DNA from: Cycloclasticus sp. 46_120_T64
GTDB lineage: Bacteria; Pseudomonadota; Gammaproteobacteria; Methylococcales; Cycloclasticaceae
Direction of reading: 5' to 3'
Assembly: GCA_002162695.1 (NCBI GenBank)
Contig: MAAM01000006.1
Location: 62,001-126,000 of the forward strand
DNA length: 64,000 nt
A model generated the notes under the pieces. It had not been told where the DNA came from. It ran no database searches and saw only the letters and a program-made list of their open reading frames with translations. The position numbers and the translations under genes are program-made. Shown piece by piece: positions 33,585 through 40,107 of the stretch. How positions within the stretch are numbered: position 1 is the stretch's first letter; each line of letters opens with the position of its first letter.

Positions 33585-34043
33585 ATGACTATTTCACGTA
33601 GAAAATTCATCCATCTATTAAGCCTAGGATCCACCGCGTGCATCAGCTTATTAAACCCCGTTAGTGCTTGGGCTATCTGGGCCCACAAAGCCTTTAACGC
33701 CGATGAACTAGACACCGCCTATCAAAACCTGTTTGGCTCCAGCACATTGACCCAATCAAACGATGTCATATTAAAGCTACCTAAAATCGCAGAAAATGGT
33801 GCCGCCGTTCCAATCAGCATTAAAACGGATATGATCGGGGTCGAATCCATCAGCATTTTTGTTAAAGATAATCCTTTGCCACTCACCGCTTCATTTCAAA
33901 TACCGAACGGCACGATTGCCAAGATATCAACCCGTATTCGTTTAGCTCAAACCAGCACCGTCACCGCAGTAGTAAAAGTTGGCGACCAGCTCTACAGCCA
34001 AAGCCAGGAAGTTAGCGTCACTCACGGTGGCTGTGGCGCTTAA
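33585..34043 (+). CDS. soxY: Sulfur-carrier protein SoxY
   Basis: 152 residues. A twin-arginine signal (MTISRRKFIHLLSLGS) marks folded export to the periplasm. The C-terminus VTHGGCGA carries the carrier Cys in the swinging arm, close to the canonical GGCG(G). SoxYZ holds sulfur intermediates as Cys adducts during thiosulfate oxidation. Only soxZ accompanies it; soxA, B, C, D and X are not in the window. Confidence 0.92.
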   Translation: MTISRRKFIHLLSLGSTACISLLNPVSAWAIWAHKAFNADELDTAYQNLFGSSTLTQSNDVILKLPKIAENGAAVPISIKTDMIGVESISIFVKDNPLPLTASFQIPNGTIAKISTRIRLAQTSTVTAVVKVGDQLYSQSQEVSVTHGGCGA

Positions 34044-34108
34044 CTTAATCGCCGACTAAACAGCATTATACTTATTACAAACAAGACTCGTGTTATTCGG
34101 AGACAACA

Positions 34109-34411
34109 ATGAAAATTACCGCAAGGTTTAAAAACGAGGTCACCAGCGTACGAGTACTGGCAACTCACCCGATGGAAACAGGCCGCCGTAGCGACCAACA
34201 AACAGGCGAACTGATCCCAGCAAAGTACATCCAAGAATTAAGCTGTGAGCACCAAGGTAAGATTGTATTTATTGCCCAGTTTGGCACCTCGATGTCAGAA
34301 AACCCTTACCTTTCGTTTTCATTTAAAGGTGGACAAAAAGGTGACACCCTACAATTACGCTGGAATGATAATACCGGTGATGTAGAAAAAACCGACACCA
34401 TCATTAAATAA
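34109..34411 (+). CDS. soxZ: SoxZ, partner of SoxY
   Basis: 100 residues with the immunoglobulin-like SoxZ fold (TSVRVLATHPMETGRR near the start, NPYLSFSFKGG near the end). It forms the SoxYZ heterodimer, and lacks its own signal, as expected if it is carried to the periplasm with Tat-exported SoxY. It lies 65 bases after soxY with its own CGGAGACAAC. Confidence 0.93.
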   Translation: MKITARFKNEVTSVRVLATHPMETGRRSDQQTGELIPAKYIQELSCEHQGKIVFIAQFGTSMSENPYLSFSFKGGQKGDTLQLRWNDNTGDVEKTDTIIK

Positions 34412-34722
34412 TGTCTCCTGCGAACCACCCTAACCAGCATTACTGCGCCTAATAAAACTAGCAAGGGATGATACTAAGGCTATTAGAACAAACACTTCCC
34501 CGCCCCTGTCGCCGAGCCCAACCACACTGCTAAAACTACCCATCAACGGCTGTGCGATAAAACATACGAAGAACTCAGCATCGGAATATAAGAAAAACAA
34601 TATATTCCGCATAAGCTCTTCCACCCCGAGCTACTTTATCAATAAGCTCGCATACTGGAGTTAACGGCTGCAACAGGCTCGGAGCAAGCTCCTGCATCAA
34701 ACTATTTGGCGACGGATGAAAA
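34412..34722. other. 311-base stretch between soxZ and pilU
   Basis: The convergent ends of soxZ and pilU. It contains two short minus-strand open frames (described separately) and a small palindrome GGAGCAAGCTCC near 34680. No clear intrinsic terminator with a T-run was seen for either gene. Confidence 0.5.
34430..34624 (-). CDS. Possible small membrane protein downstream of pilU
   Basis: A 64-codon frame with a GTG start. It contains two hydrophobic stretches, the second ending in ASFIRRSNAG, which resembles a membrane anchor with basic tail. It overlaps the frame at 34575-34730. No ribosome-binding site is clear and no family is recognised; it might be the second half of a frameshifted small gene. 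Confidence 0.2.
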   Translation of the reverse strand: MEELMRNILFFLYSDAEFFVCFIAQPLMGSFSSVVGLGDRGGEVFVLIALVSSLASFIRRSNAG

Positions 34723-34730
34723 CTATTCAT
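34575..34730 (-). CDS. Possible 51-codon gene coupled to pilU
   Basis: An ATG overlaps the pilU stop (ATGAATAG), a typical translational-coupling junction. The peptide MNSFHPSPNSLMQELAPS... ends FLIFRC. Sequence around its stop could continue in another frame as the 34430-34624 frame, so together they could be a broken gene. Evidence is only positional. Confidence 0.22.
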   Translation of the reverse strand: MNSFHPSPNSLMQELAPSLLQPLTPVCELIDKVARGGRAYAEYIVFLIFRC

Positions 34731-36009
34731 CTGTTGGTAACTGAGGTGTCCATACACCGCCCGACGCGCCCTCTTCAGATTCTTCACGCTTGGCCTGCTC
34801 TATTTCGTCATCAGTTAACTCCAATGACAAGGAAAAGCTTTTTTTCTCCTCAGCTACGGGTTTAACGGCTAACGGTTCGGCTTCAACGGGTGCCGTATCG
34901 GGCCGTGCCTCACTAGCTGCTGACGGAGTAGATTCGGCGGACTTAGCCGCATCGTACATTTTAATTTTCAAACGAAGGTTATTCACCGAGTCTGAATTAG
35001 CCAAGGCTTCATCCTTGGTAATTTTCCCTTCGGCGTATAAACGTAATAGGTCCATATCGAAGGTACGCATCCCCATCTCAGCCGAATTTTCCATCACCTC
35101 CTTAATCCCACCTATATCACCATCATGGATTAATTCAGAAATGAGCGGTGAATTCAGTAAAATTTCAAACGCCGCCGCACGCCCACCCTCTATCGTGCGC
35201 ACTAAACGCTGTGAAATAAAGCCGCGTAGGTTCAGCGATAAGTCCATCAACAATTGGTTTTTCCGCTCTTCAGGGAAAAAGTTAATGATTCTATCCAGTG
35301 CTTGGTTCGAGTTATTGGCGTGCAAGGTCGATAGGCATAAATGCCCCGTTTCGGCAAAGGCCATCGCGTGATCCATCGTTTCCTGCGCCCTGATTTCACC
35401 AATCAAAATAACATCCGGCGCTTGGCGTAAGGTGTTTTTCAGCGCATCTTCATAGGTATCCGTGTCCACCCCCACCTCACGCTGGTTGACGATAGATTTT
35501 TTGTGTTCGTGGACAAATTCAATCGGATCTTCAATGGTAATAATATGCCCCGCTTCATTGCGATTACGGTGGTCTATTAACGACGCTAAGGATGTCGACT
35601 TGCCCGAACCAGTGGCACCAATAAATAAAATAAGCCCACGCTTTTCAATAATCAAGTCGGTTAAAATCTTCGGCAAACCTAATGCCGATGCGGTGGGAAT
35701 ATCCGTCACAATATTACGCACCACCATCGCATAACTATTGCGCTGCATAAAGATATTGACCCGAAAACGGCCCACACCTTTCTCTGAAATGGCTAAATTC
35801 ATTTCAGGTTTTTCAGCAAACTCTTCGATTTGCTTAGCAGACATCACCCCTTCGGCAATCTCTTTCATCATATCCGGCATCAGGGTTAAGGCGTCGATTT
35901 CCGTCATATGCCCTTGGACTTTAGCCGAAGGCCGCGCCCCAACCGATAGATACAGGTCGGAGCCATGATTGTCGACAAGATACTTTAACCATTGATGAAA
36001 TATTTCCAT
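34723..36009 (-). CDS. pilU: Type IV pilus retraction ATPase, PilU-type
   Basis: 428 residues. Walker A GATGSGKSTSLASL, Asp box ITIEDPIEF, Walker B VILIGEIRAQETM and His box TLHANNSNQALDRI are intact. MEIFHQWLKYLVDNHGSDLY and the longer C-terminus (about 60 residues beyond PilT, low complexity) fit PilU better than PilT. PilU works with PilT in pilus retraction. pilT is not adjacent here. GAGGG precedes the ATG. Confidence 0.88.
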   Translation of the reverse strand: MEIFHQWLKYLVDNHGSDLYLSVGARPSAKVQGHMTEIDALTLMPDMMKEIAEGVMSAKQIEEFAEKPEMNLAISEKGVGRFRVNIFMQRNSYAMVVRNIVTDIPTASALGLPKILTDLIIEKRGLILFIGATGSGKSTSLASLIDHRNRNEAGHIITIEDPIEFVHEHKKSIVNQREVGVDTDTYEDALKNTLRQAPDVILIGEIRAQETMDHAMAFAETGHLCLSTLHANNSNQALDRIINFFPEERKNQLLMDLSLNLRGFISQRLVRTIEGGRAAAFEILLNSPLISELIHDGDIGGIKEVMENSAEMGMRTFDMDLLRLYAEGKITKDEALANSDSVNNLRLKIKMYDAAKSAESTPSAASEARPDTAPVEAEPLAVKPVAEEKKSFSLSLELTDDEIEQAKREESEEGASGGVWTPQLPTDE

Positions 36010-36279
36010 GACCGAACCCTCTATTGGCTTTCTGAAACCTCTTCATAACGTAACGAGCGTAGACAAAAATGAGTGACTAAACGCGGTTTACTCGCGTAAA
36101 TGAGCATTTTGAGCTGATGTCAGCAACAGTGCCGCTTTAAGCGGCACTGTATTGTCAAACGCAGTCGTTATGATGAGGCCTCTAGCTATTTACATTCGTT
36201 TTATCCGGCTATATAACGAGCCAATAAAACACCTAATGTCAGTATAGCTTAAGCGAATATTTGCATACGATAAGCGGCT
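36010..36279 (-). other. 270-base gap between copD-like gene and pilU
   Basis: Contains the strong hairpin at 36126-36150 that should end the copper transcript. The remainder should hold the pilU promoter, but no convincing -35/-10 pair was picked out. Confidence 0.5.
36126..36150 (-). terminator. Hairpin after the copper cluster
   Basis: ACAGTGCCGC/GCGGCACTGT, a perfect 10-bp stem with loop TTTAA. It lies about 130 bases after the fusion-gene stop and before pilU. It lacks a T-run, but is the only strong stem there. Confidence 0.6.
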
Positions 36280-38292
36280 TTAATGCACGTGTTCATCGGG
36301 TGGCGGCAATATTTCCTCTTCAGCCGCCAGCGCGCTAAATTGCTGCAACAAAAACGCCATATCTTGCCAAGCCTCTGGGTCTTGTTGGGGAATCCAGCGC
36401 GAACGCATATAACCAAAACGGTCGATAGTAAACTCGAGGTGATTTAATGGCTGCTCATCGTGCTCACCACTATTTTGAAAGGTTCGACGAAACTGCAGGT
36501 AGGTACGGGCAATCGCTGCAGACTCTTCGGTGACCAAGGGAAAAGGGTATTGTTGAATCAACTCAGCGCTCATCAAACCACCTCCACGCAACGCAACCCC
36601 AATAATAACCACATCATTCGCCACCATCTCAGCATAATGTTTTTTCAAACTATCCAAGCGAGCCCTACCCTCCGGCCAGGAGAAAAACACTAACAGCGTC
36701 GACTTGGACTCTCGTAAATCTTTTAAATTGCCATTTTTTACGAGACTTGAATAATAAAAGTCCGGCGCACCGATAAATGGTTTATTGGCAATAATATAAG
36801 GCTGAATAACACGCGCCGTATAACCTTCAGAAAAAGCGCGTAAATAATTGATCACGTCCCATAAGTCATCTTCATCCAGTATCTCACGGAATGACGGCAT
36901 CGCCTTATCATCACCCATCCCATGGGTTAACCACCAAAACATATCACCCACGGTATGCAGTGCCGTATGTGGCTCAGTCAAATTAGCCGGCTCTGCCGAT
37001 AAGGTTTTAGCTAAAACGCCATCGCCCTTGCCTTTAACTCCATGGCAAGCGGTACAGTTATTGCTAAATAAATCTTCACCATTTTTAATCGATACCGCCA
37101 CATAGGGTACTGTTGAATTTCGGTAAGTATCGGGATAAGCCTCGACCCCAAGTGGCGGTAGCGCCACCCCTAAACCACTGATCAACAAAATAGAACCGGC
37201 AATCATCGCCGACCTTTTATTATGCTGATAACGAATTAAATAAGTCACAACAACAATAGCCGCCATAATTAAAGCGATCCCCACCAGCACTTGCATACGT
37301 ACATCAGCGCTTTCTTGCCAAGTCGCCTCAATCGAAAAACGGAAGCTGAAGGGCCATACAATCACTTCTTCGTGCGAGGCCGGTGTGGTGCCTTTCAAGA
37401 CACTAGCAGCACCAAGCAGCAACAAACCAACCGACGCTTCTAGGCTAATCCAAGCGGCAATCGCCCAGTTAATCGACGCACTCGCCTGCTGGTTTGCGTA
37501 TTGAGGCATATAGCGAAAACGAATCATTGCCGCAACAGACAGCATCACAAAAAACAGGACGATTTTAGTTACTAAAAAAGTGCCATACGGGGTTGAAAAC
37601 AACTCTCCCCAGCGGCTCACCTGTAAAAAACCGATGACGATACCGCTCAGTAAAATAACCCCCACCATCATGCTCGCCATCACCGAAAAGCGTCGCAACG
37701 TCGCTTCAATCAGTGCATGATCCGCCTGTTCGCTCTGCTGATGAGAACAGCGTAACAACAACGCTAGTACCGGCAAACCACCCAACCAACAAGCCGCCGC
37801 AAGAATATGAAAACTATTGCCTAATAAACCCGGCCACATCGGTTCCAAGGCGGCCGCATGGCTTTTAAACGAGCCGGCTAATAACAACAATGCGGTTAAA
37901 AACGCCAGTAATAACAAGAAACTTTTATACGCCATACGCGCCATCAGCGCACCGCGTAGTAACAAGGCAAACAGTATCAACACCGCCATCGTTTGCTGTA
38001 ACAACCACACACTGCCAAAGCGGGTGGAAAACAAAACAATCTCAAGCACCTTTAAATCAAACGCAGCCGCTGTACGTTCCTCAATAGACACCGCCTGTAA
38101 AGACGGCATCAAGAAACCCGCGAGCAACAAAACACCCGCCAAAGCCGTGCAAATTTTTAAATTGCGCTGACGCCAGCCATCAATAACACCTGATCCGCCC
38201 TCAAGGGCCAGCATAGAAACCACCACCGTGCCAAGAATAAGTAACGCAGTACTGGCTTGTAGCCAATTAGCGGCGTGATACACATAGTCCAT
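36280..38292 (-). CDS. CopD / cytochrome c / thioredoxin-like fusion protein
   Basis: 670 residues in three parts. Residues 1-300 form a CopD-like domain with about eight membrane helices, plus another helix pair about 333-385. Residues about 403-490 are a c-type cytochrome domain (CTACH at 413-417, probable axial Met465 in KAMPSF). Residues about 503-655 look like a thioredoxin/AhpC-TlpA fold (APDFYY, LLVFFSWPEG, VVIIGVAL) but lack the CxxC: WPEGR stands where WCxxC is expected. The C-terminus has HVH. The cytochrome and thioredoxin-like parts should face the periplasm. The start overlaps the copC-like stop (TAATG). Copper uptake linked to electron transfer is plausible but inferred. Confidence 0.82.
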   Translation of the reverse strand: MDYVYHAANWLQASTALLILGTVVVSMLALEGGSGVIDGWRQRNLKICTALAGVLLLAGFLMPSLQAVSIEERTAAAFDLKVLEIVLFSTRFGSVWLLQQTMAVLILFALLLRGALMARMAYKSFLLLLAFLTALLLLAGSFKSHAAALEPMWPGLLGNSFHILAAACWLGGLPVLALLLRCSHQQSEQADHALIEATLRRFSVMASMMVGVILLSGIVIGFLQVSRWGELFSTPYGTFLVTKIVLFFVMLSVAAMIRFRYMPQYANQQASASINWAIAAWISLEASVGLLLLGAASVLKGTTPASHEEVIVWPFSFRFSIEATWQESADVRMQVLVGIALIMAAIVVVTYLIRYQHNKRSAMIAGSILLISGLGVALPPLGVEAYPDTYRNSTVPYVAVSIKNGEDLFSNNCTACHGVKGKGDGVLAKTLSAEPANLTEPHTALHTVGDMFWWLTHGMGDDKAMPSFREILDEDDLWDVINYLRAFSEGYTARVIQPYIIANKPFIGAPDFYYSSLVKNGNLKDLRESKSTLLVFFSWPEGRARLDSLKKHYAEMVANDVVIIGVALRGGGLMSAELIQQYPFPLVTEESAAIARTYLQFRRTFQNSGEHDEQPLNHLEFTIDRFGYMRSRWIPQQDPEAWQDMAFLLQQFSALAAEEEILPPPDEHVH

Positions 38293-38690
38293 TATGGCTG
38301 AACCGGTTTGGCCTGCTTAATGCGAAATTTGAACTTTGAATCCACTACGTGACCATCGACCGATAACACTCGGTAAAAAACGCTATATTTACCCGCCTCA
38401 AGCGTCGGTAATGTCAAGCTAAGTAATTTGTCATTACCTTCGGCCAGTACGGCTTTCTGCTCGCTGACCACATCACCCGCTTTATTTTTCACCACAATGG
38501 TCGAATAAGCCGGTTCAAGCCGCTCGCTGAACCAAATCTTAATCACTTCGGGTGATCGAGTCAGCACCGAACGCCGACCCGGATCAGAACGTTCATATTT
38601 CGCGTGTGCAAACACCGCAGAACAAGACACTAACAAGGCAAACAAAAGCCCCGTGGTTAAAAATCGTTGATGAATAATAGTCGTACGCAT
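38292..38690 (-). CDS. copC: CopC-like periplasmic copper-binding protein
   Basis: 132 residues. A signal peptide ending at VFAHA precedes a mature protein beginning with His or near it (AHAKYERSDPGRRSVL), which fits the CopC N-terminal copper ligand. KIWFSERLEPAYSTIVV and VDGHVVDSKFKFRI, with the C-terminal His, are standard CopC sequence. CopC delivers or binds Cu(II) for CopD. It overlaps the downstream CopD fusion by one base. Confidence 0.9.
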   Translation of the reverse strand: MRTTIIHQRFLTTGLLFALLVSCSAVFAHAKYERSDPGRRSVLTRSPEVIKIWFSERLEPAYSTIVVKNKAGDVVSEQKAVLAEGNDKLLSLTLPTLEAGKYSVFYRVLSVDGHVVDSKFKFRIKQAKPVQP

Positions 38691-38727
38691 GAAAAACCTC
38701 TTAAATAAGCGCTAAATTTAAATACAG

Positions 38728-38760
38728 CAGCCGTCTAGTTGCTTAAAAACTAGACGGCTG
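38728..38760 (-). terminator. Perfect 13-bp hairpin between His-rich gene and copC
   Basis: CAGCCGTCTAGTT/AACTAGACGGCTG with loop GCTTAAA. On the minus strand it is followed by a T/A-rich stretch (GTATTTAAATTTAG). It lies 64 bases after the His-rich gene and 38 bases before copC, so it probably ends or attenuates the first transcript. Confidence 0.7.
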
Positions 38761-38823
38761 GAAGGGAGTACTGAGCAATACCACTCGCTAAGCCAGTCGA
38801 TACGGGCTTAGCGGAACGCTCGA

Positions 38824-39303
38824 TTAATGTTGGTGAGCCGAATGGTCGTGCTCAACGGGCGACTTGCTAACACTCGGATCATCGGCAGCTACTGGCCGCT
38901 TGGCTAAAGGGGTGAACTTGGAGCGCCACGCAGCCTCATCAGGAAACTTAACCGACACCCAAACCCCCGTTGTTTCAGTTAGCGTAAACTCGCCGCTACC
39001 GTTTAAAAAGTTGTCTCCCGCAGCGGTCAGTTTAATAACCGTTCGTGTCTCATCGGCATTCATAATCGTTGCCGAGCCATGCGCTATTTCAACATCGATA
39101 GGGTTACCCGCGTGATCGGTCATATACACCGTAATCTCTTTTTCGGCCGTCACAATCTCAATATGATAGGGTCCAGCCATATGCGTTTGACCACCGTGCA
39201 AGGACATCGATGGGTGAGAATCTAAGTATTCATCCGAATGTGATGCGGCAATTAGCGGGAATACCATTAAGGAAACGAGCAATAAAGCTAATATTTTGTT
39301 CAT
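38824..39303 (-). CDS. Exported His-rich hypothetical protein
   Basis: 159 residues from the ATG at 39303, which has GGGAG in front; a longer frame upstream lacks a signal for starting. A signal peptide MNKILALLLVSLMVFPLIAA is followed by a His-rich N-terminal stretch (ASHSDEYLDSHPSMSLHGG) and ends HDHSAHQH. The middle is a beta-rich domain of about 90 residues (ETTGVWVSVKFPDEAAW). Both His-rich ends suggest periplasmic copper or other metal binding. It precedes copC in the same direction. I do not recognise the family. Confidence 0.75.
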   Translation of the reverse strand: MNKILALLLVSLMVFPLIAASHSDEYLDSHPSMSLHGGQTHMAGPYHIEIVTAEKEITVYMTDHAGNPIDVEIAHGSATIMNADETRTVIKLTAAGDNFLNGSGEFTLTETTGVWVSVKFPDEAAWRSKFTPLAKRPVAADDPSVSKSPVEHDHSAHQH

Positions 39304-39798
39304 AAAAAAACTCCCAGTATTAAAATCCATATAGACCTTAGGCAACAAAAAACAACCGATAGAGAACTGCCGGAATTTCATTACCAAAGGCACTAAAAAC
39401 AGTATACCTGTAGACCAGCCTATCACGTAAAAATTTAACAATCATAGCTTGACGCTGAAGGCTGTAAGGATGCAGAAAGTGGAAATCTCAAGAGTTTTCT
39501 AAACCCAACGGAGCTGAGGCTTAATATACAGCCATGTCGCATATTAATCGGGGGGGGGTCGACTTCATATTTCAGCCCAACGATGGGCGATGTATTGACT
39601 TCGGATACGCGGTTTTTAAGGTGACACTGAGTTGACGAATATCACGGGGTGAAGCTTAAATCACCAGCCACTCTCACATATTCGGTTTAGATATTGTTAG
39701 GCTTAAACCTCGGCAATATCCTGCATTGCGCTGCCTTCCGCGTCGCCTAGTAACAGCTAATTCACCTTACAATCGTCAGCCCAAGCTAGGGGCGGTGC
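39304..39798. other. 495-base non-coding stretch with repeats and a G9 tract
   Basis: No coding frame is supported. It contains a run of nine G (39550-39558), a small palindrome GCCCA ACGA TGGGC near 39575, the inverted repeat at 39690-39720, and the fliT terminator at its right end. The promoter of the copper cluster should lie near its left end, but no clear consensus was picked out. Confidence 0.55.
39690..39720. repeat. Palindromic repeat copy R3
   Basis: GATATTG and CAATATC arms enclose TTAGGCTTAAACC. The core TTGTTAGGCTTAAAC matches the reverse complement of R1 and R2 near 44.1 and 44.5 kb in 14 of 15 positions. It is a degenerate member of a short intergenic repeat family. Confidence 0.5.
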
Positions 39799-39804
39799 CT
39801 AGCT
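39784..39804 (-). terminator. Hairpin at the end of fliT
   Basis: AGCTAGG/CCTAGCT with a 7-base loop overlaps the fliT stop codon. It probably ends the fliC-flaG-fliD-fliS-fliT transcript. Confidence 0.55.
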
Positions 39805-40107
39805 CGTTGTTAAATAGGCATTAATTGCTTTGTGAGCATGCCCTGCCTTGGACATTTCCATACGCAAGCTATCCATTTGACTGTGTGAATATTGTGTCAA
39901 AATTTTATTTTTTTCCAATACAAATTGAATACCCTCGGCCAACTTTACGGGCTCAATATCGGGTTTTGAAGCAAACAAGGTTTTAACCGCCACATCCCTT
40001 GTTTTTTCCAAGGTCACAAACTCATCCCACTGCGCGTTTTCAGCTAAATCTATCAGCTTTTTAGTATCCGCAATAATAGACAACAGTTGTGGGAAATCGC
40101 TGTTCAT
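39799..40107 (-). CDS. fliT: FliT-like flagellar chaperone
   Basis: 102 residues, all helical by composition. Sequence similarity to FliT is weak, but size, helical pattern (LLSIIADTKKLIDLAENAQW, LEKNKILTQYSHSQMDSL) and the position directly after fliS agree. FliT escorts the filament cap FliD. It starts 9 bases after the fliS stop. Confidence 0.75.
   Translation of the reverse strand: MNSDFPQLLSIIADTKKLIDLAENAQWDEFVTLEKTRDVAVKTLFASKPDIEPVKLAEGIQFVLEKNKILTQYSHSQMDSLRMEMSKAGHAHKAINAYLTTS

Follow-up and report, generated by a model that had tools for sequence, protein, structure and literature searches.

A CopD protein with cytochrome c and cysteine-free thioredoxin-like domains in Cycloclasticus, and its genomic association with copper membrane monooxygenases

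The Locus and Its Three-Part Protein

The window analyzed here, 64,000 nucleotides of contig MAAM01000006.1 from Cycloclasticus sp. 46_120_T64, contains on its minus strand a single 670-amino-acid frame (P0001; 36280..38292), with its ATG at 38292 and its stop at 36280. An earlier note, made from the letters of this DNA without database searches, had read this frame as uninterrupted and as joining a CopD-like membrane part, a cytochrome c and a thioredoxin-like domain. The frame is indeed free of interruptions, and the three domains and their order have been recovered by Pfam, alignment, a family profile and fold matches of the predicted structure. In the AlphaFold2 model (pLDDT 78.6, nine-row alignment), about ten membrane helices are followed by a cytochrome c and then by a thioredoxin fold, the relative placement of the domains being unreliable at a pTM of 0.51. 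Scanning a sequence collection and searching genomes brought up full-length relatives with the same domain order in Gammaproteobacteria, a Betaproteobacteria MAG, Solimonas aquatica and a Rokubacteria MAG. Since the three-part order is kept at full length down to 29% identity, an assembly join or a chance read-through is excluded. Counts of conserved residues given below rest on 17 full-length aligned relatives.

The copper context proposed for the fusion in the earlier note is supported by the gene next to it. A copC of the periplasmic Cu(II)-binding type (38292..38690, minus strand; Pfam CopC, E 1.7e-19) ends with a stop codon that overlaps the ATG of the fusion by one base (TAATG), and its product retains in the alignment the N-terminal His and the D-G-H of the Cu(II) site. 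This gene adjoins the fusion in nearly all the loci compared and is its most constant neighbor. Further upstream, also on the minus strand, lies a gene for a secreted His-rich protein with a predicted beta-sandwich (38824..39303), which resembles CrdA, P19, FetP and FtrA in its predicted fold. In a model of modest confidence (pLDDT 66), its core matches CrdA with a Z of 11.5 and the copper proteins P19, FetP and FtrA with a Z of 10–11; searches by sequence gave no match. The same gene adjoins the fusion in L001, L002, L008, L066 and, within family f182, in three genomes (L137–L139). A 13-pair hairpin (38728-38760) separates it from copC and is possibly a terminator or an attenuator; promoter and terminator scans of the locus gave hits at chance level, from which this hairpin stands out.

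The CopD Part

The CopD membrane part comprises residues 1–310 (37363..38292, minus strand) and eight helices, as delimited by Pfam, alignment, model, positive-inside count and residues shared with YebZ. The Pfam CopD family (PF05425) matches residues 197–299 above the gathering score (E 2e-20; 73.5 bits versus a cut-off of 32.1), whereas the cut-off of the NCBIfam equivalog NF033808 is missed (116.4 bits versus 195, E 1.8e-33). By these profile scores, the protein is a member of the CopD family, yet outside the standard CopD equivalog. H145, H162, H307, W169, K243 and E285 are invariant across the 17 aligned relatives, as are the CXXCH motif and H442 further along the chain. All of these CopD-part residues but H307, which is absent from YebZ, are common to the fusion and the E. 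coli protein, and H145, H162 and H307 are predicted, from the topology given below, to lie near the periplasmic face. Two extra membrane helices, seen in the model at residues 329–381 (37150..37308, minus strand), link the CopD part to the cytochrome. Lys plus Arg amount to 0.152 per loop residue inside versus 0.062 outside, and by this positive-inside pattern both ends of the fusion and its two soluble domains are predicted to be periplasmic.

The Cytochrome c Part

The cytochrome domain occupies residues 388–491 (36820..37131, minus strand), with a Pfam Cytochrom_C match at 402–485 (E 6e-13). The CTACH heme site and probable axial Met that had been claimed for it were both borne out: the heme site is C413-T-A-C416-H417 (37042-37056, minus strand), and the probable axial ligand is Met465 within MPSF, an MPxF motif, as expected from sequence for a class I cytochrome c. 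The predicted structure matches 6h5l_B (Z 14.9, rmsd 1.8 over 100 residues), and the closest solved cytochrome by sequence is cytochrome c552 of Thioalkalivibrio (7o9u, 9vr0; E 5.6e-13). In the alignment, four congeners (L018–L021) have lost the Met of MPxF and carry FHSP, FHSA, FHSS or YHSP instead; their axial ligand might thus be changed, and the redox role of the domain there may differ or be gone.

The Thioredoxin-Like Part and the Tail

The third domain spans residues 496–660 (36313..36807, minus strand). With the fusion sequence alone, the Pfam AhpC-TSA match at 509–598 stays under the cut-off (E 0.0063); the relative L003 clears it (27.8 versus 26). A thioredoxin-like identity, as the earlier note had it, is upheld by a 13-sequence family profile, which among solved structures matches the peroxiredoxin AhpE over 505–653 (E 4.5e-5) and ResA over 506–596 (E 7.8e-5), and by thioredoxin-fold matches of the predicted structure for residues ~490–660 (Z 13–14.5). 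The replacement of the Cys motif by WPEGR was also correctly read (residues 539–543), and the whole third part lacks Cys. The catalytic CXXC of the AhpC/TSA-ResA type and the copper-binding Cys pair of the SCO/TlpA type are accordingly both absent. Among the relatives, the domain is Cys-free in 13 of 17 and none has a CXXC at the usual site; in G785, a distant member, the motif site holds a single Cys. The protein ends in DEHVH (36283..36297, minus strand), a possible metal site picked out by alignment. A C-terminal HxH is present in 16 of the 19 complete relatives inspected; two others end in MxH, and the last has neither motif. In genome G571, the copy beside the amo genes (L067, G571a) is without the HxH tail, and an unlinked paralog (L068) retains it.

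Distribution and Origin

Five of the 18 genomes of the genus itself carry the fusion, as does one further family of the order; nearly all sampled genomes of the order outside two families are without it. It reappears in distant members of the class (4/369 genomes sampled) and of the phylum (3/398). A different situation is found in family f182, in which the fusion occurs in 110 of 125 genomes, or in 92 of the 99 of good quality, mostly as two copies. The f182 genome tested holds three identical amoA genes, from which we infer that this family consists of beta-proteobacterial ammonia oxidizers and is Nitrosomonadaceae-like.

In the present genome, the fusion cassette was likely gained horizontally. 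In the congener G001, soxZ and fliT, the genes that flank the locus, lie only 23 bases apart, so that about 5.4 kb including the cassette is extra here (34412-39805: a PilU-like gene, the fusion, copC and the CrdA-like gene). In the tree, the protein clusters (97/95) with a pair from another family and apart from its four congeners. Two further features of the surroundings can be mentioned. Right downstream of the fusion (36040-36190) lies a dispersed repeat, about 100 bases long, that is also present in many of the genus's genomes, and soxY and soxZ (33585-34411) form an isolated pair within the neighborhood examined.

A phage or plasmid origin was rejected: no PHROG matches the fusion, and plasmid hits are partial, never spanning most of the protein and mainly covering the cytochrome part. 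The hits on Burkholderia plasmids (L135 3878-5059, and L136) keep the cytochrome c and the degenerate redoxin end and have no CopD. The Burkholderia protein matches the fusion over the stretch that reaches from the extra helices to the cytochrome inclusive (E 7e-33, one-sequence search) and again at the redoxin end, and its gene adjoins genes for a sulfonate-type ABC transporter. The cytochrome–redoxin half therefore exists alone, and its link with copper is not a general one.

Association with Copper Membrane Monooxygenases

The fusion is genomically associated with the copper membrane monooxygenases (CuMMO). In four loci (L004, L007, L066, and L067), the order within the operon is pmo or amo genes, PmoD, copC and the fusion; a fifth (L069) has the same order with PCuAC after the fusion. 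The neighbor was assigned as PmoD by its match to 6CPD (E 4e-17). L007 (pmoB, PmoD, copC, fusion) is a MAG contig labeled Klebsiella pneumoniae, a label that is probably wrong. Outside the f182 survey, 14 of 16 carrier genomes have a member of the AMO/PmoA family; of the other two, L008 still has PmoD and copC beside the fusion. In a neutral sample of the class (369 genomes), the fusion was found in four genomes and AMO in 11, all four carriers being among the 11; Fisher's test gives 4e-7 by genome and 4e-5 by genus, the genus count being the only way in which relatedness is handled. The link is weaker within the genus itself, where CuMMO is present in 5/5 carriers versus 7/13 non-carriers (P 0.11). 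Given that many CuMMO genomes are without the fusion (7 of the 11 in the sample of 369), it must be regarded as an accessory that CuMMO does not require. The present genome has the fusion outside both of its pmo operons: two pmoCAB operons lie elsewhere (L044 and L045), each followed by a PmoD-like gene. The two operons are different; one PmoD-like protein keeps Cx7MxH, like the CuA-type PmoD, and the other has Asn for His.

The pmo and amo operons have been reported to hold copC and copD (PMC6189053, PMC5960693, PMC13374858), their content including pmoCAB, pmoD, copC, copD and PCuAC (PMC6189053), and CopD of ammonia-oxidizing bacteria is expressed (PMC5960693). The cases within operons, together with the co-occurrence with CuMMO, identify the fusion very probably as what the literature calls the CopD of these operons. 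The CopD of Methylosinus, Nitrosomonas and Nitrosospira has the same place in the operon and probably belongs to the same protein family; the papers found treat it as a plain CopD. In the openly available papers searched, neither a cytochrome nor a redoxin part is mentioned for it. Of the claim that the three-part order is undescribed, what stands is that no paper was found naming the extra domains; as an arrangement it is far from unusual, being nearly universal in f182. The novelty is thus one of description, not of existence.

A role in oxidase assembly, also suggested in the earlier note, is not supported: the genomic link is to pmo/amo, and this reading was rejected in the absence of any oxidase gene as a conserved neighbor among the loci compared. 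The same neighborhoods bear on a broader alternative, in which the fusion would import copper for cuproenzymes of every kind, cytochrome oxidases included, and the CuMMO link would mirror a high copper demand. Ordinary CopC–CopD systems do support oxidases (PMC13344008), two carriers (L005 and L008) have no detectable CuMMO, and the fusion is unlinked to pmo genes in the present genome. However, the repeated placement in pmo/amo operons next to PmoD, as well as the lack of a conserved oxidase neighbor, makes the general importer an unlikely reading.

Comparison with Known Fusions and Partners

Other CopD proteins with added domains have been described. YcnJ of Bacillus subtilis (CopC–CopD–YtkA) resembles the fusion in having a CopD with extra extracellular domains, and it sustains copper enzymes when copper is limiting (PMC13344008, PMC12362106); its extra domains are, however, CopC and YtkA, with no heme and no redoxin, and it serves heme-copper oxidases. 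CtiP of Corynebacterium glutamicum likewise joins CopD to an assembly domain for a copper enzyme (PMC9145763), but this domain is CtaG, for cytochrome oxidase, and there is no cytochrome or redoxin. The cytochrome c/FTR1 family iron permeases, which are among the hits to the cytochrome part, combine a metal permease with a c-type cytochrome, although here the permease is FTR1, for iron, and not CopD. Finally, cytochrome c552 of Thioalkalivibrio works together with thiocyanate dehydrogenase, a copper enzyme whose gene is flanked by copCD (PMC9456337, PMC5328954); unlike the fusion, it is a free, unfused periplasmic protein, and its enzyme is a different one.

Possible Function

A tentative reading, to which we give a little short of an even chance, is that the fusion is the CopD component of a copper cassette (PmoD, CopC, the fusion and often a CrdA/P19-like protein) serving CuMMO, and that it carries a cupric reductase or redox gate of its own. 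In this way copper import may be coupled to redox chemistry, as the earlier note had proposed. Periplasmic CopC would bind Cu(II) and hand the ion on at the periplasmic mouth of CopD, which is lined with His residues. There the two extra helices would keep the cytochrome c domain close by, so that it could give (or take) an electron and alter the redox state of the copper. The Cys-less redoxin domain and the HxH tail may form a docking or copper hand-over surface rather than a thiol enzyme, and the copper delivered would load CuMMO. The domains with their order and conservation, the topology pattern and the association with CuMMO in operons and genomes are observed, and what we infer in this scheme is the binding and path of copper, the direction of electron flow and the hand-over to the monooxygenase. 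The genomic association does not speak to the direction of copper or electrons. The strongest external support for a built-in redox partner comes from YcnJ: a His of its CopD is essential for copper supply, and His residues of both CopC and CopD are needed for copper-limited growth (PMC13344008). No reductase is known for YcnJ, as the same authors remarked, and in their view it may depend on a dedicated cupric reductase (PMC13344008).

An alternative is that the fusion delivers electrons: CopD would take them from quinol, perhaps via heme b, and the cytochrome would pass them to the monooxygenase, the electron donor of pMMO/AMO being unsettled. When superposed on CydA of cytochrome bd oxidase, the model of the CopD part gives a Z of 20.7 (rmsd 3.9, 286 residues), and a profile comparison with the family of the heme b protein HemJ (PF03653) gave a P of 9e-4, with H162 and K243 aligned to the conserved His and Lys of HemJ; the controls in this comparison, CydA and PmoC, gave P 0.4–0.5. 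But the HemJ probability is only 24%, helical bundles match easily, and homology to CydA was dropped, as the high fold match is accompanied by an empty profile comparison (P 0.41). In addition, the most constant neighbor is the copper-binding CopC, and several CuMMO lineages are without the fusion, which leaves electron delivery improbable.

CopC and CopD were originally described as resistance proteins, and the cytochrome resembles c552, which accepts electrons from thiocyanate dehydrogenase, a copper enzyme of the periplasm; the fusion could on these grounds serve in copper detoxification, with its cytochrome turning Cu(I) in the periplasm into Cu(II) and passing the electron to the respiratory chain. 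The operon context, however, is one of copper-using enzymes, and no efflux pump or multicopper oxidase is a conserved neighbor, so that detoxification appears very improbable.

Significance

The copper source and the electron donor of pMMO/AMO are unsettled, and active AMO has not been purified (PMC6189053). A bolder form of the redox-coupled copper cassette, which we consider somewhat doubtful, is that the CopD of ammonia and methane oxidizers is a copper permease coupled to redox chemistry through a cytochrome of its own; it would then be the cupric reductase or electron partner that has been missing, and would load CuMMO or feed it. The fusion would also provide a transporter family that has no known reductase with one that is built in. 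If the CopD of these operons is a heme protein with a redoxin, it becomes a defined and testable candidate for either role, copper source or electron donor, and this matters in the organisms that control methane and ammonia oxidation.
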